Shown here: positions 5,894 to 42,442 of the stretch, in pieces
How the letters are laid out: each line of letters opens with the position of its first letter
How positions within the stretch are numbered: the first letter of the stretch is position 1
IMG/VR virus record: IMGVR_UViG_3300036944_000550
Span: 1-64,000 of that record
Length of the DNA: 64,000 nt
Source: a virus
Reading direction: 5' to 3' (one strand)
Notes under the pieces: generated by a model
Database searches by the model: none
What the model was told of the DNA's origin: nothing
Seen by the model: the letters and a program-made list of their open reading frames with translations, nothing else
Program-made: the position numbers and the translations under genes

Positions 5894-6392
5894 ATTTCTT
5901 CAGATACTTTCTTGCTCGTTTGTTTAAAGACTTGAGTGCCATGTCGAGTTTCAACTGTGATACATGATCAGAGAAATTTAATCCTTCCATGTGATCAAAT
6001 TCATGCTGGGCGATTCTTGCAGGTAGACCCGCAAAAGTTTCGACCACATATTCTCCAGTAACAGTCTGGTATGAAAGAGTCACTTCCTTGGGGCGTTTAA
6101 CAGACAACCATAATCCAGGATATGATAGACATCCTTCCTTGGCGAGTTCCGTTTCCTTAGAGACAGAAACTACATGCGGATTAAAAACATTTTTACGATT
6201 GGTATCGTCGGATCCCATCACAAAAACTTTGGAGTCAATACCAACTTGATTAGCAGCAAGACCAAGTCCCCGTAACCTTCGAGATTCTTCCCACAATTTA
6301 TCGGCAAGTTCCTGTGCGTTCTGAGTTTCAAAGTCAAAGATTTCAGGAACCTTGCGAAGAGCAGGGTCTGTAAATTTAATTAATTCCATCAT
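5874..6392 (-). CDS. def: Peptide deformylase
   Basis: A 172-residue iron/zinc peptide deformylase, which removes the formyl group from nascent N-termini. All three family motifs are intact: motif I GLGLAANQ (about 42-49), motif II EGCLS (86-90, metal ligand C88) and motif III QHEFDH (129-134, ligands H130 and H134, catalytic E131). Length is typical of short bacterial and phage enzymes. It starts with an ATGA overlap on the gp46 stop, so it is translationally coupled to the recombination nuclease. Phage deformylases are known mainly from marine cyanophages, where they are thought to favour turnover of particular host proteins. The benefit here is inference. Confidence 0.93.
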   Translation of the reverse strand: MMELIKFTDPALRKVPEIFDFETQNAQELADKLWEESRRLRGLGLAANQVGIDSKVFVMGSDDTNRKNVFNPHVVSVSKETELAKEGCLSYPGLWLSVKRPKEVTLSYQTVTGEYVVETFAGLPARIAQHEFDHMEGLNFSDHVSQLKLDMALKSLNKRARKYLKKYVKQNL

Positions 6393-8104
6393 ACCACCAT
6401 TTCACTGTAATTATTTTTCTTTTCAAACTTAATCAAACTGCGGAACTTATCGAACAGTTGATCACCCTTGTGACTGATGACAAACACATTAGTATCTTCG
6501 CCGACAGTATCAAGCAATGCCATAACATAATCGGTACCATTATTATCCAGTGAGGAGTCAAAAACCTCATCAAGAATTAGCAGATTAGTTGCTACGCTGT
6601 TCTTCATCTTAGCAATTGTGCGCCAAGTAAACAGCAGCGCCAAGTCAATTCTTTGTTTCTCACCTTCGCTGAACGAAGCGTAACTAAAGTCGTCGCGATG
6701 TCGCGATTTAATTGTCTCATCAAACTTCTCATCAAGATTAAACTGCACGAAGAAGTCCATTGCTTGTAGATATTTATTTACCAACTTATTGATAACTGGA
6801 AGATACTGCCGAATAATCTTAGTCTTAATACCAGTGTCCTTGAGTAGTGTCGAGACAACTTCCATGTAATGCTTTTCTTCATTCAGTCTTGCCTTTTCCT
6901 CGTTCTGTGTCAGAACTTCCTTAGCATATGACTTGAGTTTTGTTTTTTCTTCATCAATATCTGCAGTCTTGGTTGCAATGTCATTTAGTTCTAGATTAAG
7001 TGCTTGAATCAGACGCTGTTGAACAATAATTTCGTTGTTGTTCGCGATAATCTCTGCGCTCAACCCAGAAATTTGTTCGGAAAGAGTCTCATTTTCCGAG
7101 ATAAGTTCTCCAAGTTTCGTAAATTCTTCTTGGAGTTTTTCCATTCCTGAAGAAAGTTCTTGCATTTTCTCTTGTCGGGATGATACGATGGTTTCTTTAT
7201 GATCGTGAGCAATGCCTTGCCGACATGTCGGACACTCATCCGTTTCCTTGTAGAATGCCACCTCCTTTTGGAGATCGCGGAGTTGGCTGGAAAATTTGGT
7301 TTTAAAAGATTCGAGTTTCTTTTGCTTTGTTGCAAGGTCTCCGAGTGCTGCCTTGGCATCTTCGTGTGTAATCTTCTCTCCTTCGAGCGCAGCAACAAGA
7401 CCTTGGAAACGGGTGATTGACAATTCACCATCTTCGATTCGTGAGATAATTTCATCAACTCTCTTTTCTTTATTTGCTTCGAGCGTATCGACATATTCTT
7501 TCTGAATGGTTGCCTTTTGTTTCAGAACTTCTAACTTACCATCAGCATCATGAAGACTATCTTTCAGTTCGTTCATCTTGTCGCGCAGAACAGTATTCAT
7601 TGTTGTAAAGATCTGAATGTCAAGAATGTCTTCAATAATCTCGCGACGAGTAAACGGTGGCAACTGCATGAATGGAGTGAACGATGCTGAACCCAGAATA
7701 ACAATCTGAGTAAACGATTTGTAATTTAGTTTTAGAACTGATTCCTCGAGATACTTTTGATAGTCCCGAGCAGCAGCATCCTGATTGATTACTTCACCAC
7801 CAGATTGAATCTCGAAGATGTTCGGTTTAATACCACGAACAATCTTATAATCTTTACCACCAATGTCAAACTCAATCTCAACCAGAAGATTTTTCTTGTT
7901 GATAGAATTAAGCAGTTGTGGTTTATTGATGCTACGGAATGGTTTACCGAATAATCCGAAGCAGAGAGCATCGAGCAGTGTGGATTTACCGCCACCATTC
8001 TCACCAACAATCAAAGTGCTGGGCGAACGGTTAAGTTCAATTTCAGTGAAAGCATTACCTGTTGAAAGTAAATTCTTCCAACGTATAGTTTTAAAAATTA
8101 TCAT
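6389..8104 (-). CDS. 46: Recombination endonuclease subunit gp46 (Rad50/SbcC-like)
   Basis: A 571-residue SMC-like ATPase that with gp47 forms the T4-type Mre11/Rad50 nuclease resecting DNA ends for recombination-dependent replication and host DNA degradation. Walker A GENGGGKS lies at about 34-41. A long coiled coil is split by a zinc hook CPTCRQG near residue 295. The ABC signature FSEGEKQR and Walker B LLILDEVFD lie near the C-terminus. It overlaps gp47 by ATGA (8101-8104), giving near equimolar synthesis. Length is close to T4 gp46. Confidence 0.96.
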   Translation of the reverse strand: MIIFKTIRWKNLLSTGNAFTEIELNRSPSTLIVGENGGGKSTLLDALCFGLFGKPFRSINKPQLLNSINKKNLLVEIEFDIGGKDYKIVRGIKPNIFEIQSGGEVINQDAAARDYQKYLEESVLKLNYKSFTQIVILGSASFTPFMQLPPFTRREIIEDILDIQIFTTMNTVLRDKMNELKDSLHDADGKLEVLKQKATIQKEYVDTLEANKEKRVDEIISRIEDGELSITRFQGLVAALEGEKITHEDAKAALGDLATKQKKLESFKTKFSSQLRDLQKEVAFYKETDECPTCRQGIAHDHKETIVSSRQEKMQELSSGMEKLQEEFTKLGELISENETLSEQISGLSAEIIANNNEIIVQQRLIQALNLELNDIATKTADIDEEKTKLKSYAKEVLTQNEEKARLNEEKHYMEVVSTLLKDTGIKTKIIRQYLPVINKLVNKYLQAMDFFVQFNLDEKFDETIKSRHRDDFSYASFSEGEKQRIDLALLFTWRTIAKMKNSVATNLLILDEVFDSSLDNNGTDYVMALLDTVGEDTNVFVISHKGDQLFDKFRSLIKFEKKNNYSEMVV

Positions 8105-9156
8105 ACAGAAACGTGCTGTGCCTCAATATACAAAGTTCTTAACATGTTTTTAATTTTATCTTTGTCGAGGTCGGTGCTAACAGTGTCAACAAAATCGGAT
8201 AGTACGGTCATCGTATCTTCAACATCCATCTTATCTTCCTCAATTACATCTGCCTCGAACTCAGAGAAGTCTTCAATTATCTTTAGTTCGATTAGATCGC
8301 AGTCATATAGTTTATCAACGAAGCGATCAAATTTATAGAAGTCTGTCTTCTTGACTACGACTAATCTTACACAACTACCAACAATTGGTCCAAGGTCCAT
8401 ACTATTAGGATCGCTAGTAGTATCATCATAATAGATTTTATGGAAGATTTGAAATGGGTTCTCAAAGAATTCTACCTCGTTAGTTTCCGTGTCATATAAG
8501 TGATACCCTCTAGGGTCATTATAGTCAGACCAAGTAAACTCATAGGTATTACCAAGATACAGAATGTTACCAGTCCGACTGCGATGGTGAAAATGACCAG
8601 AACAAACGAGAGGAAATCTATCAAAACGTTCAGTGCCCATGCCATGGTCATTTTTATGCCCACGATACATTTCAAAACCTGAAAATTCAAAGTGTCCAAA
8701 TACTGCTTGTGCATTACTTTTATCTACAACCTCCATGGTTTCTGCATAATTACCAGAACAAATCCATGGCACGAGCAATAGATTCTTTCCGTCTAGTTTA
8801 ATTTCTTCTGCGTCAGAATATGTAATAACATTACCATATTCACGAAGTAGCAGGTCTAGTGAGTTTACCTCATTAGTATTCTTGAAAAATGTGTCATGGT
8901 TTCCTGCGATCATGTGCACATCGATACCGAGATCTCTTGCTTTATCGAAGAAATACTCACGACACTTTTTTAGTGTGTTGTAATTGATAAACTTGCGGCG
9001 ATCAAAAACATCACCAAGATGAATAATGGTTTTGATTCCTGCTTGTTCGAGATGCGGGAAAAACACCTCAGTATAAAACTTCGCGAAGAAGTTATCGAAC
9101 GGAATAGAATCTGACCTTGCACCAAAGTGTGTGTCCGTGATCAACGCAACCTTCAT
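8101..9156 (-). CDS. 47: Recombination endonuclease subunit gp47 (Mre11/SbcD-like)
   Basis: A 351-residue metallophosphoesterase nuclease. The five phosphodiesterase motifs are present in order: DTHFG near residue 7, GDVFDRR near 49, GNHD near 88, FGHFEFSG near 153 and GHFHHRS near 187. It pairs with gp46. The gene is the second of an operon that starts with a small membrane protein at 9486 and runs through gp46, deformylase, a hypothetical protein and the ClpP-like protease. Confidence 0.96.
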   Translation of the reverse strand: MKVALITDTHFGARSDSIPFDNFFAKFYTEVFFPHLEQAGIKTIIHLGDVFDRRKFINYNTLKKCREYFFDKARDLGIDVHMIAGNHDTFFKNTNEVNSLDLLLREYGNVITYSDAEEIKLDGKNLLLVPWICSGNYAETMEVVDKSNAQAVFGHFEFSGFEMYRGHKNDHGMGTERFDRFPLVCSGHFHHRSRTGNILYLGNTYEFTWSDYNDPRGYHLYDTETNEVEFFENPFQIFHKIYYDDTTSDPNSMDLGPIVGSCVRLVVVKKTDFYKFDRFVDKLYDCDLIELKIIEDFSEFEADVIEEDKMDVEDTMTVLSDFVDTVSTDLDKDKIKNMLRTLYIEAQHVSV

Positions 9157-9171
9157 ACTCGAACTTTCTAA

Positions 9172-9486
9172 TTACTTTGTAGGTGCAGTAGGAACTACTT
9201 CTTCCAACTTTTCTTCGGTCGTTGGTTCTGCTTCACCTTCTTCTGCGAGGCGCTTAAGAACAATTTGACCATCACAGATCATGTAGTGTTGACCATCGCC
9301 GAGATCGCTCGACTCAAGATAGATGCATCCTGCGTTCTGCTTAGAAACTCCTTGAACACCATTCCTATGTTTACTAACACTAATGGATACTGATGCGATG
9401 ATCAATGCAAACGCAAGAAAGAAAAATACTGCGAACCAGTTTTCAGTGAACCATGCAACGTACTTGTTAGTTTTTACTTCAGTCAT
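9172..9486 (-). CDS. Small single-pass membrane protein
   Basis: A 104-residue protein with one clear membrane segment (WFAVFFFLAFALIIASVSIS, about residues 17-36), preceded by a short N-terminus with Lys and followed by a soluble domain containing two Cys residues and a Glu/Pro-rich tail. ATG 9486 has an excellent AAAGGAG Shine-Dalgarno, so the upstream in-frame TTG at 9504 is rejected. It is first in the gp47-gp46 operon. Function unknown. A location in the inner membrane is predicted. Confidence 0.75.
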   Translation of the reverse strand: MTEVKTNKYVAWFTENWFAVFFFLAFALIIASVSISVSKHRNGVQGVSKQNAGCIYLESSDLGDGQHYMICDGQIVLKRLAEEGEAEPTTEEKLEEVVPTAPTK

Positions 9487-9518
9487 AAACAACTCCTTTA
9501 ACAATCTTTAATAATTCC

Positions 9519-9547
9519 ATTCTACTCTATATCAAGAGAATTGTCAA
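9519..9547 (-). promoter_or_regulatory. Sigma70-type promoter for the gp47/gp46 operon
   Basis: Minus-strand TTGACA (9547-9542), 17 bp spacer, TAGAAT (9524-9519). It overlaps the last codons of gp55 and would drive the operon from 9486 to 4927. Confidence 0.78.
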
Positions 9548-10133
9548 TGATTTTTTGGTCTAAATATTTCGGTCGACGCTTTGGTATGTTACTGACCTTT
9601 GCTGATTCTGGTTTGTCGAAGTCATCAATCATGTCCATCTGCTTCTTAACATAGTCAATAAACTCATTACCATAGTCACCTGTATCATGGTCTTGAGTAA
9701 TCAAGTCATGGACATCAATGTTTCGCATGTATCGATACTTCGTTTGCTGTTGGCGTTTCTCTTTCGCGATACGACGAAGGAAAGCATAGTATGTTATCTG
9801 TGTGAAGTACGCGAAGGGATTCTTTGATTTCTCAGGATTAAAGTTATCGATGTAAGTAATACAATTTTCAATACCATCCGACACCATTTCTTCTCGATAT
9901 GTGTAGTTGATAAAGTTACTCTTGTATGCCAAGTGAGTTGCGATCTTTAGAAAGCATTCCCCGATATAGTTAGGAATACGAGGTTTTAATACTCCTGCTT
10001 CTTTTGCAGCAATAACACTATCTCGATACTTAGTAATCTCTTCAAGAAACTTAGAGTTATCTACATAATGTATGTTGTTTTTCTTATTCTTCTTGAATGG
10101 TTTCTTCACATTTTTTTCTGGTATTTCAGTCAT
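9522..10133 (-). CDS. 55: Late-transcription sigma factor gp55
   Basis: A 203-residue protein matching T4 gp55, the small divergent sigma factor that directs host RNA polymerase to TATAAATA late promoters. The diagnostic segment NPFAYFTQITYYAFLRRI lies at about residues 103-120 (sigma region 2-like), preceded by MVSDGIENC. T4 gp55 is 185 residues. The Shine-Dalgarno GGAG lies 7 nt before the ATG. Its expected targets are the TATAAATA boxes found before the head and tail genes of this window. The coactivator gp33 and clamp gp45 are not in the window. Confidence 0.93.
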   Translation of the reverse strand: MTEIPEKNVKKPFKKNKKNNIHYVDNSKFLEEITKYRDSVIAAKEAGVLKPRIPNYIGECFLKIATHLAYKSNFINYTYREEMVSDGIENCITYIDNFNPEKSKNPFAYFTQITYYAFLRRIAKEKRQQQTKYRYMRNIDVHDLITQDHDTGDYGNEFIDYVKKQMDMIDDFDKPESAKVSNIPKRRPKYLDQKIIDNSLDIE

Positions 10134-10156
10134 TTATAACTCCATCTATACATACC

Positions 10157-10185
10157 GTTATACTATACTTTTTCTTATTAGTCAA
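10157..10185 (-). promoter_or_regulatory. Sigma70-type promoter for gp55
   Basis: Minus-strand TTGACT (10185-10180), 17 bp spacer, TATAAC (10162-10157). Leader of about 17 nt containing the Shine-Dalgarno GGAG. Its -35 box is 34 bp from the -35 box of a divergent rightward promoter. Confidence 0.75.
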
Positions 10186-10218
10186 TGTTTTTTTTTCACT
10201 ATTATTTCAGTATATAGC

Positions 10219-10247
10219 TTGACAACACTCGCGATTCGAGGTATAAT
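10219..10247 (+). promoter_or_regulatory. Perfect consensus sigma70 promoter, rightward
   Basis: TTGACA (10219-10224), exactly 17 bp, TATAAT (10242-10247). This is the only promoter of this class on the plus strand and the only one with both hexamers perfect. The spacer holds the palindrome CTCG-CGATT-CGAG. Transcription would start near 10254, in a region with no plus-strand gene, and run antisense to the 122-residue gene and uvsW. Confidence 0.75.
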
Positions 10248-10253
10248 GACTAT

Positions 10254-10376
10254 GTCGAGTATGATGAATAATAGATTTACTACTGCTTAATTGAGTAGGT
10301 TCCTGCTCCTGAGTAGTCGGGAGTGCAACATATCCATGTCTGTATTTTCCTCTTGAGTTTCCTCGGGGAACTTTAC
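10254..10376 (+). ncRNA. Possible short antisense RNA
   Basis: Predicted from the consensus promoter at 10219. Downstream sequence contains no worthwhile ORF, only a nine-codon ATGATG reading frame ending at 10290. It contains a 7-bp hairpin (CTCCTGA, GTAG, TCGGGAG; 10306-10323) and a 6-bp hairpin (GTTTCC, TCG, GGGAAC; 10357-10371) followed by TTTACTT. The last could be a weak terminator, giving an RNA of about 120 nt complementary to the 3' end of the 122-residue gene. This is inference, and the U tract is poor. Confidence 0.25.
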
Positions 10377-10655
10377 TTCTCCAGAGATATATCTTTCATA
10401 CTGTCCTAGGAGATTCTCTCTCAAAAGGCAGACAGTAATTATTTCGGATTTGGGTATCAGAAAAGTCTTCTCTGTAGTAATGCCAATCCATGGTTTCAAA
10501 AGAAACGTTTCCCCGACAACATCTTCTTGAATCATAGGATAGGGAATTACTGCAATGGGATTATCCATCCAGAATAATTCATTGGTATCACTGTCTCTTA
10601 TCGATGCGATTACTAGGTCGCCATTTTTAAATTTAAGTACCTTTGGAGTTTCCAT
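10287..10655 (-). CDS. Putative Sm-like (LSm) fold protein
   Basis: A 122-residue protein. The first 80 residues show an alternating beta-strand pattern typical of Sm/LSm folds: KFKNGDLVIASI, then NPIAVIPYP, then LKPWIGITTEKTFLIPKSEIITV. The same kind of small protein with an ...LKPW/LMPW... strand is common in marine T4-like phages. The C-terminal 40 residues are charged and probably disordered. It overlaps the uvsW stop by 23 nt with a GAGGAT Shine-Dalgarno inside uvsW, so it is the third gene of the uvsY-uvsW operon. RNA binding is an inference from the possible fold, and I am not certain of the family. Confidence 0.6.
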   Translation of the reverse strand: METPKVLKFKNGDLVIASIRDSDTNELFWMDNPIAVIPYPMIQEDVVGETFLLKPWIGITTEKTFLIPKSEIITVCLLRENLLGQYERYISGEVKFPEETQEENTDMDMLHSRLLRSRNLLN

Positions 10656-12162
10656 CAGTAGATATCCTCACGAGTTTGTATTTAAAACCTTCTTCATTAT
10701 ATAACTTAATTCTCTCTATCATGTGTAGTAGAGTATAATTCTTTTTACTTTTCCAAGACAAGTCATCACCAATGTCAAAAAGACGGCAGGAAGTTTTGTC
10801 ATCCCCCTTACGCAATCCTCTACCAATCGACTGTAGATTTCTTACTCTAGATTTCGACGGAGAAGCGAATATGACATTATGTAGATTCCTTATATTTATT
10901 CCTGTTGAAAAGGTGCCATAAGATGCGATGATAACTGCATCTTTTTCTTTCTCGGTAATCTCACGAACCTTCTCACGTTGTTGAGTGTCAGTTCCACCAT
11001 GAACAAAGAAAACTTGACGAGACTTTCCAATCTTCTCATTGATCAAGTCATACAAAACAGCGCCATGCTTCTCAACAAACTGGAATAGCACCAGCGTGTT
11101 GCCTTTTTGCGTAGTCGCTAGATTCTTGATTATGTTGTTGCGCTTTTGGTGTGTTACCAACCAGTCCATTTCTTCTTGATAGGTATACTTAGTTAGTGCT
11201 TTCTTCTCTTCATCAGTATAATCCAGCACGATACAAGTTATGTCTAGATCGGCAACGGATCCCTGTTCCATCAATTCTTTGGTTGAGATAACTTTATGAA
11301 CCTTACCAAACAATCCCTCTAGGATCAACTTGTGCGTCTTAGTTCCATCAAGAGTTCCTGTTGTTCCGATCCGGAACTTAGTCTTGGTGCATTTGTTGAA
11401 GATTGATGTTAGCGATTTCGCTTTGAAAAGATGCGCTTCGTCTCCATATATAACATCAAACCCATCAAAAAACTTTTTAGGTAATTTGTAGATTGATTGC
11501 CATGTTGATATCGTAATGGGATACTCATTCGACTTTTCAAATCCTGAATAGATTCTCGCACAATTATAACTTGCTTTCCAGTCTGTTTCTGAGGCATAAT
11601 CTTGGAAGTCCTTATACATTTGTTCAACCAGAGATGTGGTTGGAACAATAATTAATTGTTTGCGCCCAAACTTTTGGTGGTATCGCATCAACAGATAAAT
11701 GATCAGCGACTTACCAGATGCAGTTGGTGACAGTAGTAGAGTTCTGCCGATGCGAATCGCATACTTAACAGCGTCTAACTGGTAGTCTCTCGCTTCGATC
11801 GGATTACCTTGTGAATGGAGATTCAGCGAGTCGGCATATTCAACCAGTTCTTCATAGGTTATGGGATCGCCGATACGTTCGATCTGAACGTCCATCTCAT
11901 ATTCATTACGCTGACAAAATTCTCTGAGGTATGGGAGAAGTCCTACGTATAGTTCTTTAGTCCACATGTTAAACAAACGTGCCTTACCGTCCCATAACTT
12001 AGCACGGTAGGTGGGCATAAATTTTGCACCTGGAACATCAAACGTAAAATACTCTGATAGTTCCTGTGAAATACTGGGGTCGCATTCCACATTTAGATAC
12101 ACTTCATCTTTTTTAGTGATGGTTAGATCGGTCACATTAATCCATTTGTAAATTTGGTCCAC
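10633..12162 (-). CDS. uvsW: UvsW ATP-dependent helicase
   Basis: A 509-residue superfamily-2 helicase that in T4 unwinds R-loops and remodels recombination forks, switching replication from origin- to recombination-dependent initiation. An N-terminal domain (about 1-120) precedes Walker A SPTASGKS (145-152), motif II DEAH (241-244), motif III-like TGTLDG and motif VI QSIGRGLRKG near 460. It begins with GTG at 12162 inside the 3' end of uvsY (31-nt overlap). No ATG is available before the conserved N-terminal domain, so translational coupling to uvsY is likely. Confidence 0.94.
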   Translation of the reverse strand: MDQIYKWINVTDLTITKKDEVYLNVECDPSISQELSEYFTFDVPGAKFMPTYRAKLWDGKARLFNMWTKELYVGLLPYLREFCQRNEYEMDVQIERIGDPITYEELVEYADSLNLHSQGNPIEARDYQLDAVKYAIRIGRTLLLSPTASGKSLIIYLLMRYHQKFGRKQLIIVPTTSLVEQMYKDFQDYASETDWKASYNCARIYSGFEKSNEYPITISTWQSIYKLPKKFFDGFDVIYGDEAHLFKAKSLTSIFNKCTKTKFRIGTTGTLDGTKTHKLILEGLFGKVHKVISTKELMEQGSVADLDITCIVLDYTDEEKKALTKYTYQEEMDWLVTHQKRNNIIKNLATTQKGNTLVLFQFVEKHGAVLYDLINEKIGKSRQVFFVHGGTDTQQREKVREITEKEKDAVIIASYGTFSTGINIRNLHNVIFASPSKSRVRNLQSIGRGLRKGDDKTSCRLFDIGDDLSWKSKKNYTLLHMIERIKLYNEEGFKYKLVRISTDGNSKGT

Positions 12163-12572
12163 TCAATTGCGGACTTAATATCCCATGTCCTACTATTTAG
12201 TGACCGCAGAATCTGCTCTAATTGGTAGAGGACTGCCTTGATATAATCAATCTTGTCTTGTTGTTTGATCATCTCTTCATCACACTGAAGAACATCGTCC
12301 ATCTCATTTTTTAGTGGTTTGAGACCTTGGTATTGATTCCATCCATGTTCTTCGAGTTCTTCGCGTGTTAGTTCTCCACGATAATACTTCATCTTAGTTC
12401 TGCGCAAGCGATAATAATCTGCCTCTGCCTTGCGCAACTGCAGTTTTGAATTTGATAGTATGTTAAGATATTTAGAATGCAACTCTGGTGTCTTGGTTGA
12501 TTCTGGACCAAGATTTAATTGGTCGATTTTACAGTCTTTAGTCCATGACTCTTGAATTTCAGATAGTTTCAT
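12132..12572 (-). CDS. uvsY: UvsY recombination mediator
   Basis: A 146-residue, highly charged helical protein with the size (T4: 137) and pattern of UvsY, which loads UvsX recombinase onto gp32-coated single-stranded DNA. Similar features are the N-terminal EIQESWTKDCKID, the central YYRLRRTKMKYYRGE and the C-terminal RSLNSRTWDIKSAIEW, which parallel the T4 protein. The position directly before uvsW is as in T4 and cyanophages. Strong GAGGG Shine-Dalgarno. uvsX is not in the window. Confidence 0.88.
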   Translation of the reverse strand: MKLSEIQESWTKDCKIDQLNLGPESTKTPELHSKYLNILSNSKLQLRKAEADYYRLRRTKMKYYRGELTREELEEHGWNQYQGLKPLKNEMDDVLQCDEEMIKQQDKIDYIKAVLYQLEQILRSLNSRTWDIKSAIEWTKFTNGLM

Positions 12573-12598
12573 AATGCCCTCAATAGAAAAATAATATA

Positions 12599-12627
12599 AG
12601 TATACTACATTTTGCTTAGAATGTCAA
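12599..12627 (-). promoter_or_regulatory. Sigma70-type promoter for the uvsY-uvsW operon
   Basis: Minus-strand TTGACA (12627-12622), 17 bp spacer, TATACT (12604-12599). It starts only a few bases after the gp3 stop codon (12631). Confidence 0.78.
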
Positions 12628-12630
12628 GCT

Positions 12631-13215
12631 TTAAAGTGCCGCAACTGTGTATTGGCGGTATTTAAACGCAGCAATACCAACCAAGTAATCTGCTCTACCA
12701 GAACTGATGTCGAAGTCTAATGCCTCAAGACTAACTGGGAATACATCATAGTATGTAATTTTAACATTCGGATTATTGTCCGAGTCAAGAATGAAGAAGT
12801 CTGCGTCTGAGAAGTTGCCTAGTGCACCGAGACGTTTATCTGAGATGGCAGGAAATCTATAACGTTGCGATTCATTCCAGTTTTTATATTGGTCTCTAGA
12901 CTCTGGGAATCCAAGACCAACCATCCAGTTGTATAATTCAAGATAGTTGCTCATGTTCTCTTGAACAAGAAACCGAATTACTAAGTCACCATATGACAAT
13001 TTATCTCCAGGAACTGGAATATCTGACAGTGGTGTTTGAAATGTTGGTGAACCGAGTTGTATTGCAGGAATGTTTGCTGCTTGGCAGAAGTATGATACAT
13101 TGGGTAGATTGTGGACCTGAAATTTAAATCCATTTGGTTTAAGATAATCGAGATCGCTGGGTTGTTGGTTAACCCAGTTTGCTTCTGTTACACCCAGTGA
13201 TGTTTTTAATACCAT
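12631..13215 (-). CDS. 3: Tail completion and sheath stabilizer protein gp3
   Basis: A 194-residue protein assigned to gp3, which caps the tail tube at the head-proximal end. It resembles T4 gp3 (176 residues) in the run DLVIRFLVQENMSNYLELYNWM (given in part: DLVIRFLVQE, then LYNWM), which parallels T4 PLIVRFLVDE...MYEWM, and in the late DADFFILDSDNNP strand. The fold belongs to the gp19-like tail-tube family. Its place between gp23 and uvsY is the same as in cyanophages. It has its own TATAAATA late promoter. Confidence 0.85.
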   Translation of the reverse strand: MVLKTSLGVTEANWVNQQPSDLDYLKPNGFKFQVHNLPNVSYFCQAANIPAIQLGSPTFQTPLSDIPVPGDKLSYGDLVIRFLVQENMSNYLELYNWMVGLGFPESRDQYKNWNESQRYRFPAISDKRLGALGNFSDADFFILDSDNNPNVKITYYDVFPVSLEALDFDISSGRADYLVGIAAFKYRQYTVAAL

Positions 13216-13237
13216 GTTACCCTCATTTGTTTCATAC

Positions 13238-13245
13238 TATTTATA
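13238..13245 (-). promoter_or_regulatory. Late promoter of gp3
   Basis: Minus-strand TATAAATA followed by GT, the T4 late-promoter consensus, 22 nt before the gp3 ATG. Recognised by gp55 in T4. Confidence 0.75.
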
Positions 13246-13248
13246 ATG

Positions 13249-13275
13249 AAAATGGGGAGAGCATTTCTGCTCCCC
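13249..13275 (-). terminator. Terminator after gp23
   Basis: On the minus strand a GC-rich hairpin (GGGGAG paired with CTCCCC, 10-nt loop) is followed by ATTTTCATT. The tract is only moderately U-rich. A second hairpin (CCTCTC/GAGAGG, 13292-13310) lies directly after the gp23 stop and may be part of the same 3' end. Confidence 0.55.
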
Positions 13276-13316
13276 CCAGTTTCTTAGCAACCCTCTCTCT
13301 AATGGAGAGGTATCGA

Positions 13317-14603
13317 TTACATAAGGTTAGTAACCTTAACACGACGATAGTATTGGTTACGGTTAGAAGTGAACGTATCACCGTCAGTTGTACCGTTCGA
13401 CTGAGTTACGAATGGGTTAGCGATCATCCCGTAACGAGTCTTGAAACCAATTTTTGGTTGGAAGGTATTAGGATCGATTGCACGAACCATTTGTAGTGGA
13501 ACGTATGGGCAATAGAAGATACCAGCGTCATAAGCATTGGCACCCTTATAACCAACAACATAGAACTGCGATGCAGCGCCAGTGTTTGCTGAGTATGGAT
13601 CTACGAATACTTTGTAACGACCGTTCAGCGTACCAACGAAGGTATTGCCTGTGTCATCAACTTGAAGAGTTGGCGAACCAGCAAGTGCAGCACCTGTATC
13701 AAGCATACCTGCCATTGCGAGAGCAGCAGCAACATCTGACGAACAGATAATGAAGTTACCCTTACCACGACGAGTGTCTTGAGCGATTACGTTAGCGTCA
13801 CGTTCGATGTTGAACAGAAGACCCTTGAAACGCTCAACTGACCAACGACCGTTTGAGTCAACGTCAAGATCGAAAGTACCAGCAGTTGCAGTCGAAGCGG
13901 CACCTGTCTTAGCAACTTTGTAGATCGTACGGATAACTTCGCGGTTGATTTCAGCAAGAATTTCTTGTGAAAGGATGTTGGAGAGTTCGCCTTCAGCATC
14001 AAGACCGTGAATTGCCTTGAGATCTTGAGCGAGTTCTACAGTGTATTCTGCTTTAAGAGCACGTGTCTTAGCAGTTACAGTTGTTTTCTCGATCGAGAAT
14101 GCCATTTGGTTGAAGTCAGTTCCACCAGATTCGCCAAGTTGCTCAGCGTCTACTGTTGCAACACCAGTACCTGTGGTGTAAGAACCATCAACTGGGTTCG
14201 AACCAGCGTGAGTTCCTGTACCAGCGAAGTCTGTATCTGCTTCGTTGAAGAGTGCTTCCGTACCCGCTTGGGTGCTGTAAGCTGACTTCATTGCGAAGAT
14301 AAGACCAGTTGGACCAGTCATAGGTTGAACGCCAGCAACGTCATATGCCATCAAGTTAGGCAGCGCACGACGAACGAGCGAGATTAGGATTGGATCGTAG
14401 CGATCGATGTCGGACGCACCAGTACCAGCGATGTTGTTTGCTGGAGTTTCGAAAAGAGCAGTGCGCTCTTCGCGAAGTGCACGCTCTTGGTTTTCAAGAA
14501 CTACTGCAGTAACCGCACGCTTGTATTTATCTGTGATCTGGCCAAGTCCGTCATGATTGAGAACTGGTTCCCACTTTTTTGTTAGTTGCTCTGAAAGAAA
14601 CAT
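13317..14603 (-). CDS. 23: Major capsid protein gp23
   Basis: A 428-residue HK97-fold major head protein, shorter than T4 gp23 (521). The conserved RRALPNLMAYDVAGVQPM region (about residues 78-95) matches T4 RAMPNLIAYDICGVQPM. In T4, gp21 removes an N-terminal peptide after an (L/I)-x-E site. Here LFE at about residues 50-52, just before TPANN, is a good candidate, which would leave a mature protein of about 376 residues. Late promoter and GGGG Shine-Dalgarno upstream, double hairpin downstream, as expected for the most abundant virion protein. Confidence 0.97.
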   Translation of the reverse strand: MFLSEQLTKKWEPVLNHDGLGQITDKYKRAVTAVVLENQERALREERTALFETPANNIAGTGASDIDRYDPILISLVRRALPNLMAYDVAGVQPMTGPTGLIFAMKSAYSTQAGTEALFNEADTDFAGTGTHAGSNPVDGSYTTGTGVATVDAEQLGESGGTDFNQMAFSIEKTTVTAKTRALKAEYTVELAQDLKAIHGLDAEGELSNILSQEILAEINREVIRTIYKVAKTGAASTATAGTFDLDVDSNGRWSVERFKGLLFNIERDANVIAQDTRRGKGNFIICSSDVAAALAMAGMLDTGAALAGSPTLQVDDTGNTFVGTLNGRYKVFVDPYSANTGAASQFYVVGYKGANAYDAGIFYCPYVPLQMVRAIDPNTFQPKIGFKTRYGMIANPFVTQSNGTTDGDTFTSNRNQYYRRVKVTNLM

Positions 14604-29494: not shown

Positions 29495-29525
29495 AAAAAA
29501 GTGGGAGGGGAGAAATTCCCCTCCC
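29495..29525 (-). terminator. Strong rho-independent terminator after the 563-residue fibre gene
   Basis: Perfect 9-bp stem (GGGAGGGGA with TCCCCTCCC, loop of five bases, 29503-29525), followed on the minus strand by AC and six Ts. It lies between the fibre gene stop and the Shine-Dalgarno of the coiled-coil gene. This is the clearest intrinsic terminator in the window. Confidence 0.9.
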
Positions 29526-40408: not shown

Positions 40409-42442
40409 TTATGCTGTCCTTATCCACAATTTAACAGATGACACTGTTTCTTTAGTTGCTTGTATTGTTGCGCCGGAATATGTTCCTATAAAGTTATTTA
40501 TATAACTCCCCAAGTAATTTCCAGTGTAATTTGTTGTTCCAGTGTAAAAACCAGTATATGCTATTCCTACGCCAGTGAAATACCCTGTATAGGTTCCAGT
40601 GTACGCTGTTCCAGTAAAGGTTGCAGAATATGGAGTTCCTGGAGTTCCGCTGAAAAACCCTGAGTACGCTGGTCCTGGACCAGTATAGAATCCAGTATAT
40701 GAAGTTCCTGGACCACTGAAAAACCCTGAGTACGCTGGTCCTGGACCAGTATAGAATCCAGTATATGAAGTTCCTGGACCTGTAGGTCCAGTATAAGTTC
40801 CTGCATACGGCTGACCATATGATGGACCTGCTGGATTCGAGTATGATGGACCTGCTGGATTCGAATATGATGGACCAGCTGGGTTTGATCCTGCAGGTGT
40901 AGAATATGATGGCGGTCCCGCATAGAATCCAGTGTAATATGCCTTGTCATAACCAGTGACAAAATACAGGGAAGGGCCTTGGAAATTTCCTGCATAACCT
41001 AAATTTGATGCATAGAATCCAGCATAATTTTGTGGTGCCGAAAACTCTCCTATGTAAACTTCTCCAGGTTCATTTGGAGCGATAGGTATCTCAAAGTATC
41101 CAGTATAGTTGAGACCTGGACCTGTATAAAACCCAGTATAGTTTGCAGCAAAGATACCACTAGTATAATATACTACCTGTTCTCTTTGGGGCGGAGGACC
41201 ATCGTAATTCCCTCCATAACTGCCAGTATATGGTGTTGAATATGATGGACCTGCTGGATTATTACCTGCTGGATTCGAGTATGATGGACCTGCTGGATTC
41301 GAATATGATGGACCAGCAGGTGTAGAATAAAATGGACCACCTATGTAATTACCAGTATAATTTGCTCCTGGATTTGCTGGACCCGTATAAGTTAATCCAG
41401 TATAATTAGTAGTACTAGAAAAATTACCAGTATAATTGCTGGACCCTGTATAGGTTGTTCCAGTATATGCTAAAGGAGAGGAAAAAGATCCAGTATAATT
41501 GCTGGAAGTACTATAGGTTGTTCCAGTATATGGGGAACTATAAGCAGGTCCAGTAAAATTACTGCTGTAATTTCCTGATGCAGAATAAGGCGCAGAATAT
41601 GGAAAAGGACCAGTATAATTACCAGTATAATTACCAGTATAATTACTACTGTAATTACCAGCGTAGTTCTGTGGCGTTACTTCTTCGCGAGTATCCGTGA
41701 ATGTGTTACCTGTTTGAACCCAAGTGCCGCCACTAGGCGCATCTGATTGGATTTTATAAGTTCCGATACCTGTTTCAATAATTCTATTTCTAAAGACTGG
41801 AAGCATCTGTTCGATTTCTGCTTCAGTCATCTGCTTGCAGTTACCACCATTAAACGTTCTTAGTGGTGTGAGATCCGCTGTTGGTAGTGAAGATGAAACT
41901 GTTTTCTGCCACAGATATGTTACAGTGTTTCCACCTTGTGCTGTATCTGTTAATGTATACCGCGAAACCCAAGTTCCGCCTGATGGTGCAGTTGCTTGCA
42001 GTTTATATTGTCCAGCAGTATATGTTGATTCAGATACCATTGCATTAATACACAGATCCATTGTGCTATCAATGTCACCATCTACCATTTCTTCTAGACG
42101 AGAATCCCATGCTAATGGTCTGTTGGTAATACTTTCCACTGCTGCAGCAGTAACCTGTTTAGCAGTGTATGTTGTTGTAGAAACTGCACCAGTAGCAGGA
42201 TGCGTTCCGATAGATTCGGTTCTTGTCGTATCGACAAACGTACCGATCAAAGTTCCTGCACCTGAGTTATTTGTAGTAATATTAATTTCAGCAGTTCCAG
42301 TACCATCTGTTACTGCAGCAAACTTTTCTGTGATAACATTAGCAATATAATTTTTTACCTCTGCATCGGTCATGGTCTGCAAACCGCTGATGTTTGCAGA
42401 AGTGATTGGGGAACCTGTTGCCTTGACCTTTAGAGGGTTCAT
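40409..42442 (-). CDS. Tetrapeptide-repeat adhesin-like protein 2
   Basis: A 677-residue paralogue. The N-terminal 255 residues align with protein 1 (SANISGLQTMTDAEVKNYIA, NITTNNSGAGTLIGTFVDT, QYKLQATAPSGGTWVSRYTL). From about 258 the sequence becomes a repeat region with NYTG tetrapeptides, PSYSNPAG octamers and SYTGFYTGPGPAYSGFFSGPG 22-residue units (two perfect DNA copies). The shared C-terminal cap TKETVSSVKLWIRTA follows. It begins one base after the stop of the 160-residue gene, with AGGTTAA as a possible Shine-Dalgarno, and shows more Pro and Ser than protein 1. A receptor-binding or decoration fibre is inferred. Confidence 0.78.
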   Translation of the reverse strand: MNPLKVKATGSPITSANISGLQTMTDAEVKNYIANVITEKFAAVTDGTGTAEINITTNNSGAGTLIGTFVDTTRTESIGTHPATGAVSTTTYTAKQVTAAAVESITNRPLAWDSRLEEMVDGDIDSTMDLCINAMVSESTYTAGQYKLQATAPSGGTWVSRYTLTDTAQGGNTVTYLWQKTVSSSLPTADLTPLRTFNGGNCKQMTEAEIEQMLPVFRNRIIETGIGTYKIQSDAPSGGTWVQTGNTFTDTREEVTPQNYAGNYSSNYTGNYTGNYTGPFPYSAPYSASGNYSSNFTGPAYSSPYTGTTYSTSSNYTGSFSSPLAYTGTTYTGSSNYTGNFSSTTNYTGLTYTGPANPGANYTGNYIGGPFYSTPAGPSYSNPAGPSYSNPAGNNPAGPSYSTPYTGSYGGNYDGPPPQREQVVYYTSGIFAANYTGFYTGPGLNYTGYFEIPIAPNEPGEVYIGEFSAPQNYAGFYASNLGYAGNFQGPSLYFVTGYDKAYYTGFYAGPPSYSTPAGSNPAGPSYSNPAGPSYSNPAGPSYGQPYAGTYTGPTGPGTSYTGFYTGPGPAYSGFFSGPGTSYTGFYTGPGPAYSGFFSGTPGTPYSATFTGTAYTGTYTGYFTGVGIAYTGFYTGTTNYTGNYLGSYINNFIGTYSGATIQATKETVSSVKLWIRTA
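40470..41668 (-). repeat. Mixed repeat array in adhesin 2
   Basis: It contains a perfect 66-bp tandem duplication (copies beginning near 40651 and 40717), three perfect 12-bp units cagtataattac at 41611-41646, and a block of 24-bp units encoding PSYSNPAG present at about 40827-40890 and again at about 41270-41325. It is built like a locus that changes length by slippage or recombination. Confidence 0.85.

Follow-up and report, generated by a model that had tools for sequence, protein, structure and literature searches.

A conserved sigma-70-type promoter facing the end of the uvsY-uvsW-LSm operon beside the late sigma factor gene of T4-like phages

In the gap between the late sigma factor gene gp55 and the end of the uvsY-uvsW-LSm operon, we found a conserved promoter of apparent host sigma-70 early type that faces the operon end and is predicted to make a short noncoding RNA antisense to the 3' end of the LSm-like gene. 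Our tentative reading, to which we give a little less than an even chance, is that it acts mainly in cis and shields gp55 from read-through. The DNA analysed (hereafter the window) comprises 64 kb out of a 96,535-base virus record, and in its ORF list the long ORFs from 6389 to 14603 all point leftward; by ascending position they are gp46, gp47, a 110-aa protein, gp55, a 122-aa protein, uvsW, uvsY, a tail-tube gene and a gp23-like gene. Family matches were obtained for gp47, gp55, uvsW, uvsY and the tail tube; gp46 and the gp23-like gene are presumed identities, given by eye and recall. The features of the region are as follows.

9522-10133, minus strand: gp55 late sigma factor gene (phrog_234, E 3.3e-59)
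10157-10185, minus strand: gp55 promoter, TTGACT-17-TATAAC, 10/12, diverging from the antisense promoter
10219-10224, plus strand: -35 box of the antisense promoter, TTGACA (consensus scan)
10242-10247, plus strand: -10 box of the antisense promoter, TATAAT, spacer 17 (consensus scan)
10248-10256, plus strand: dyad at the start site, GAC-TAT-GTC, containing the conserved TGT (10253-10255) and the predicted start G10254
10254-10372, plus strand: putative noncoding RNA, antisense, with a weak hairpin and a T stretch near its uncertain 3' end
10287-10655, minus strand: LSm-like gene, 122 aa (phrog_471, labelled methylamine utilization)
10633-12162, minus strand: uvsW helicase gene (UvsW_N, E 8.9e-15)
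12132-12572, minus strand: uvsY gene (UvsY, E 6.3e-30)
12599-12627, minus strand: probable operon promoter (uvsY-uvsW-LSm), TTGACA-17-TATACT, so assigned by position

An earlier note, made from the window alone, had described a perfect rightward TTGACA-17 bp-TATAAT, and our consensus scan confirmed it at 10219-10247 on the plus strand with a score of 12/12, heading into the minus-strand LSm-uvsW-uvsY operon. Its sigma-70 hexamers fall within the 16-18 bp spacing and stand above chance, and we infer a sigma-70 promoter of the host early type. Nine sites with at most one mismatch occur in the window against 0.94 expected, this one being the sole perfect match; the whole 96,535-base record has a second 12/12 site (71954-71982, minus strand) and no third, and the second sits inside a minus-strand ORF of 200 aa in the same, sense, direction. 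Because the -10 box ends at 10247, the start is predicted at G10254, in agreement with the proposed start near that position, and the transcript would run into the 3' end of the minus-strand LSm gene at 10287, overlapping it from +34, so that the claimed antisense relation to the 122-residue gene also holds. The note's further proposals, an RNA extending to uvsW and a role in timing the early-to-late switch, are conjectural. Likewise, the statement that no plus-strand gene lies downstream was borne out among the ORFs overlapping 7500-13500, where all those of at least 106 aa are on the minus strand and the longest plus-strand ORF has 105 aa.

The gap itself, 153 bp from the stop of the 122-aa gene to the start of gp55, holds both opposed promoters. 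The gp55 promoter (TTGACT at 10185-10180, TATAAC at 10162-10157) is indeed back to back with the antisense one, the distance between the two -35 boxes being 33 bp by our count rather than the 34 bp given before. On the simplest reading, the gap is a divergent-promoter module; the module is present in the sequence, and its effect, discussed below, is put forward conditionally. The suggestion that the operon ends in a gene for an LSm-fold protein was strengthened by an eight-protein profile, which matched PDB chain 3by7 (E 3.1e-10), a structure that we take to be Sm-like. An Sm-like protein is also annotated at the corresponding place in the record of phage S-SCSM2R. The same family (window 10287-10655) additionally matches PDB entries of the TIP60 protein cage.

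Conservation was examined in 330 sequences, consisting of 320 loci from IMG/VR (four gp55 queries, best 80 matches each), seven named phages (S-PM2, Syn19, Syn1, DSL-LC03, S-RIM2, P-RSM6 and Melnitz-1), the window and two pieces of its own record. A gp55 match was present in 329 and a called start in 306, the latter splitting into 279 gap loci (at least 45 bp), 16 loci with gaps below 20 bp and 11 without an upstream ORF; the 279 were reduced to 162 non-redundant representatives, with the window and its copy L081 left out. The antisense promoter, whose conservation in related phages the earlier note had offered as a check, scored at least 10/12 in 94.4% of these 162 gap-bearing representatives and at least 11/12 in 61.1%, against 6.0% and 0.5% of dinucleotide-shuffled gaps, and 6.2% and 0.6% of LSm coding DNA of equal length. 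The gp55 promoter reached at least 10/12 in the gap of 78.4% of the 162, so the antisense promoter is, if anything, the better kept of the two. The promoter, its position and the first ~15-20 bases of its predicted transcript are all conserved. Among the named phages, S-PM2, Syn19, Syn1, DSL-LC03 and S-RIM2 have an antisense site of 11/12 and P-RSM6 one of 10/12. Before de-duplication the site reached at least 10/12 in 262 of the 279 gap loci, and against our reading stand the 17 below that score (15 at 9, two at 8), together with Melnitz-1, which has a weak form only (TTGCTT-17-TATATT, with the usual start-site signature behind it; its best automatic site, 9/12, is in a different register). 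None of the 16 loci with gaps below 20 bp, scanned over 60 bp, had a site of at least 10/12. In L037-L040, L047, L056-L058 and L060, the upstream gene lies only 9-13 bp from gp55 and the antisense promoter is absent, which constitutes an alternative, joined arrangement.

Antisense sites of this quality are rare within genomes. Five genomes (S-PM2, Syn19, Syn1, Melnitz-1 and the window's own record) contain 206 gaps of 45-250 bp between called same-direction genes, and only four of these gaps contain an antisense site scoring 11/12 or better, every one at the LSm/gp55 junction, Melnitz-1 being the sole genome of the five that misses it there; sites at exactly 10/12 add three more.

Behind the -10 box, the representatives have in common the signature AAC--TGT--GGGTT, with T, G and T at positions 6-8 (86%, 81% and 73% of representatives), the expected place of a sigma-70 start. 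The signature is not confined to the junction. A pattern search of the seven named genomes returned one or two extra copies each in S-PM2, Syn1, Syn19 and S-RIM2, one loose match in DSL-LC03 and no further copy in P-RSM6 or Melnitz-1; the four extra copies whose annotation was read (S-PM2, Syn1 and two in Syn19, one before cpeT) precede same-strand genes, and a Melnitz-1 near-copy with a TATTAT -10 precedes a hypothetical gene. The same kind of scan in IMG/VR gave at least 80 loci (from at least 120 stretches). Among the matches listed, 54 of 80 lie at the gp55/LSm junction, and every one of these is antisense; the other 26 are at different places, several preceding same-direction ORFs, with translations behind several that by eye resemble CpeT and ThyX, and some at loci that do not look T4-like. 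GTT, which was outside the search pattern, follows in 52 of the 54 junction matches and 18 of the 26 others listed, versus 9 of 80 in a control stretch. Since the signature also heads sense promoters, the antisense site is a member of a gene-serving promoter class, of which the commonest member sampled reads antisense. Judging from hexamers and neighbours, the class is probably early. In Melnitz-1 (L373-L380; e.g., record 37407, 65995), several sense promoters among the matches listed mirror their -10 just downstream (TATACT..AGTATA), forming another start-site dyad.

The dyad at the start site has arms of only 3 bp in the window and longer ones in many relatives, where the arms covary (AACTCT/AGGGTT, AACAGT/GCTGTT, AACCTT/GAGGTT, CAGCA/TGCTG, CCCTA/TAGGG, GGGTA/TACCC). 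Among the 149 loci having the required TG, with G-T pairs allowed and relatedness uncorrected, dyads of at least 4 bp occur in 78% versus 34% of mononucleotide shuffles, and of at least 6 bp in 36% versus 3.6%; control stretches 22 and 40 bases further down have dyads of at least 4 bp in 36% and 44%. We rejected a hairpin of the leftward mRNA, as allowing wobble on the other strand barely changes the share of loci with dyads of 4 bp or more (40% to 42%), whereas plus-strand wobble lifts it to 78%, a preference that is suggestive only and comes in many cases from one clade's AACTCT/AGGGTT. A hairpin of the antisense RNA was rejected as well, for the predicted start lies in the loop and the structure cannot form in that RNA; therefore, the dyad belongs to the DNA or to initiation. 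It is conceivable, though doubtful, that the dyad is a functional element, folding in the non-template strand or bound as DNA, of a Kyanoviridae early promoter class whose most widespread member makes only antisense RNA and sets the timing of gp55 and the UvsW-LSm operon.

As for the proposed shielding, one promoter in the gap would drive gp55 and the other would, probably early in infection, direct polymerases into the operon end, where they would make a short antisense RNA; by pairing of this RNA and by head-on collisions between polymerases, operon transcripts could then be held back from gp55, which would thereby be timed by its own promoter, with LSm and UvsW output possibly lowered by the antisense transcription. 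In this way the antisense promoter may contribute to a separate switch to late genes. Most relatives have no leftward terminator between LSm and gp55: at -5 kcal/mol one passes at the LSm end or in the gap in 14 of 162 (8.6%, versus 7.2% of shuffles), and at -7 in 6.2% versus 2.2%. As leftward terminators are thus somewhat commoner than in shuffles, some phages may not need another stop. Shielding also leaves unexplained why the transcript's first ~15-20 bases are conserved, and why the last eight codons of LSm show synonymous conservation.

These same features would be accommodated if the predicted transcript were itself a base-pairing RNA regulating LSm-uvsW mRNA or other targets, perhaps together with the LSm-like protein encoded next to it, a possibility that we consider unlikely on balance. 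The first bases are at least partly a feature of the promoter class, being common to sense promoters. In the last eight LSm codons, synonymous conservation is 0.725 against about 0.55 mid-gene (1157 non-independent pairs), which goes beyond the protein and would fit an RNA role too; codons near the LSm start, overlapped by uvsW, are also high (0.69-0.77). Of the 153 representatives that reach 10/12, 151, 149 or 152 had enough sequence, depending on the test. Rightward terminators inside the LSm gene are enriched: at -9 kcal/mol they pass in 28 of 151 versus 10.1 +/- 2.6 in synonymous-codon shuffles (largest of 30 shuffles, 16), and at -5 in 69 of 151, under half of the representatives, versus about 54 expected. 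The excess, which counts in favour of shielding by a short RNA as well as of a base-pairing RNA, is largest 100-199 nt downstream (23 versus 6.4, two bins summed, 149 loci), and the RNA may accordingly often end within about 100-200 nt. In the window no rightward terminator passes the rule, which, like the pass rate of under half, weighs against the shielding reading. Of six relatives scanned, two pass at +117, where the window has its weak T stretch (L005, -8.7; L007, -7.5), L002 passes at +99, L003 and L008 only beyond +330, and L001 nowhere.

Folding tests, weak as they are, speak mostly against a structured base-pairing RNA. Where the earlier note had seen two hairpins and a weak T stretch at about 10372, folding gives three main hairpins, and the T stretch, TTTACTT, fails the terminator rule; 10254-10376 folds at -32.3 kcal/mol, a modest gain over shuffles (z -1.55), of which 12 in 200 fold as well. 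Across 152 representatives, synonymous shuffles match the folding of the initial 120 nt (mean z -0.29; opposite strand -0.22), and Rfam gave no match at gathering score in the window. A first consensus-fold test had no power: real alignments came out at zero energy, as did shuffled ones, and even the dyad was missed. By clusters, a consensus fold beyond shuffles appeared in one of ten, a hairpin at z -2.97 in eight relatives (L023, L042-L044 and others) that favours an RNA role in that group; the other nine were not significant, several being uninformative at zero energy. A small plus-strand protein was rejected, since antisense ORFs are not in excess over synonymous shuffles (24% of 149 loci have a longest ORF of 40 aa or more, versus 27%); the 31-aa plus-strand annotation in Melnitz-1 starts inside gp55 and ends before the antisense promoter.

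It is conceivable, though distinctly unlikely, that the RNA is a by-product and that the gp55 promoter receives negative supercoils from the antisense polymerase or is in competition with it. The back-to-back placement agrees with such coupling, and 34 of 122 pairs have interlocking or overlapping -35 boxes (offsets -16 and -7; five further pairs with larger overlaps are perhaps misassigned); however, the spacing varies between interlocked boxes and 54 bp, which means that selection has not fixed one geometry. Divergent or bidirectional promoters of bacteria likewise place two opposed promoters in one short region. The junction differs from them in its two separate sites, its varied spacing and an antisense site that reaches at least 10/12 more often than the gp55 one.

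With still less probability, the duplex might shield LSm-uvsW mRNA from host RNase E, or direct its cleavage, as was proposed for another marine cyanophage (Stazic 2016, as cited in PMC10976474). According to PMC10976474, which cites the same work, antisense transcription has been observed in Kyanoviridae, and this lends the idea some plausibility. Here, however, the duplex would extend over no more than the 3' end of a single gene.

In phage T4, R-loop origins combine a promoter, a purine-rich RNA and uvsW. The junction resembles them in its promoter, in the uvsW gene next door and in the purine-rich first bases of the predicted RNA in many relatives, e.g., GTCAAGGGTTCAAGGG, and one may imagine that the transcript primes leading-strand synthesis and is removed by UvsW. 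We regard such an origin as very improbable: the junction differs in lacking a skew signal, and sense copies of the promoter class head ordinary genes. In all five genomes (20 bins each) the sign of GC skew is the same on both sides of the site and goes with the coding strand; four-fold-site skew has no clear switch, although in Melnitz-1, where it is near zero, it drifts from -0.006 to +0.015. For phages whose replication depends on recombination, the absence of a skew switch at the site in the five genomes is weak evidence. Finally, although the scan does give many weak sites (56 versus 46 expected in 20 kb), a chance consensus match is refuted by the conservation, and the rarity as an antisense site, the GTT that follows junction matches and the excess over expectation in the window also speak against it.

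Antisense RNA in cyanophages is already known from CfrI, the noncoding antisense RNA of the psbA region of cyanophage S-PM2 (as described in PMC2984593 and PMC5931967), and the LSm/gp55 junction would be a further case in the same phage family. As given in those two sources, CfrI belongs to another locus, measures about 225 nt and was reported as expressed; the RNA here is predicted from the DNA, and the junction site, unlike CfrI, is conserved across most gap-bearing relatives sampled. With the cyanomyovirus sigma-70 early promoters outlined in PMC2984593, the junction promoter has in common sigma-70-like -35 and -10 boxes and a signature found before sense genes, and it differs from them in being antisense, with no gene found behind it. 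The same 2010 review calls early and middle control in cyanomyoviruses unclear and describes them as having no homologues of motA and asi, which regulate the middle mode in T4 (PMC2984593). A noncoding promoter kept beside the late sigma gene in most gap-bearing phages sampled would be a concrete and testable part of early/middle control, accessible in S-PM2, Syn1 and similar isolates. By title and abstract opening, we found no literature report of an antisense promoter at the LSm/gp55 junction, in a search mostly outside subscription journals, to which the Syn9 transcriptome and CfrI papers belong, and we do not claim that it is unpublished.

Two further features of the window deserve mention. 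A perfect G/C-rich hairpin, GGGAGGGG..CCCCTCCC, at 29503-29525 has T-rich flanks on both strands and lies near a change of gene direction, and is likely a terminator. In addition, TGGACC-17-TATAAT occurs twice, exactly 45 bp apart, at 41333-41406, which is probably a sequence repeat.
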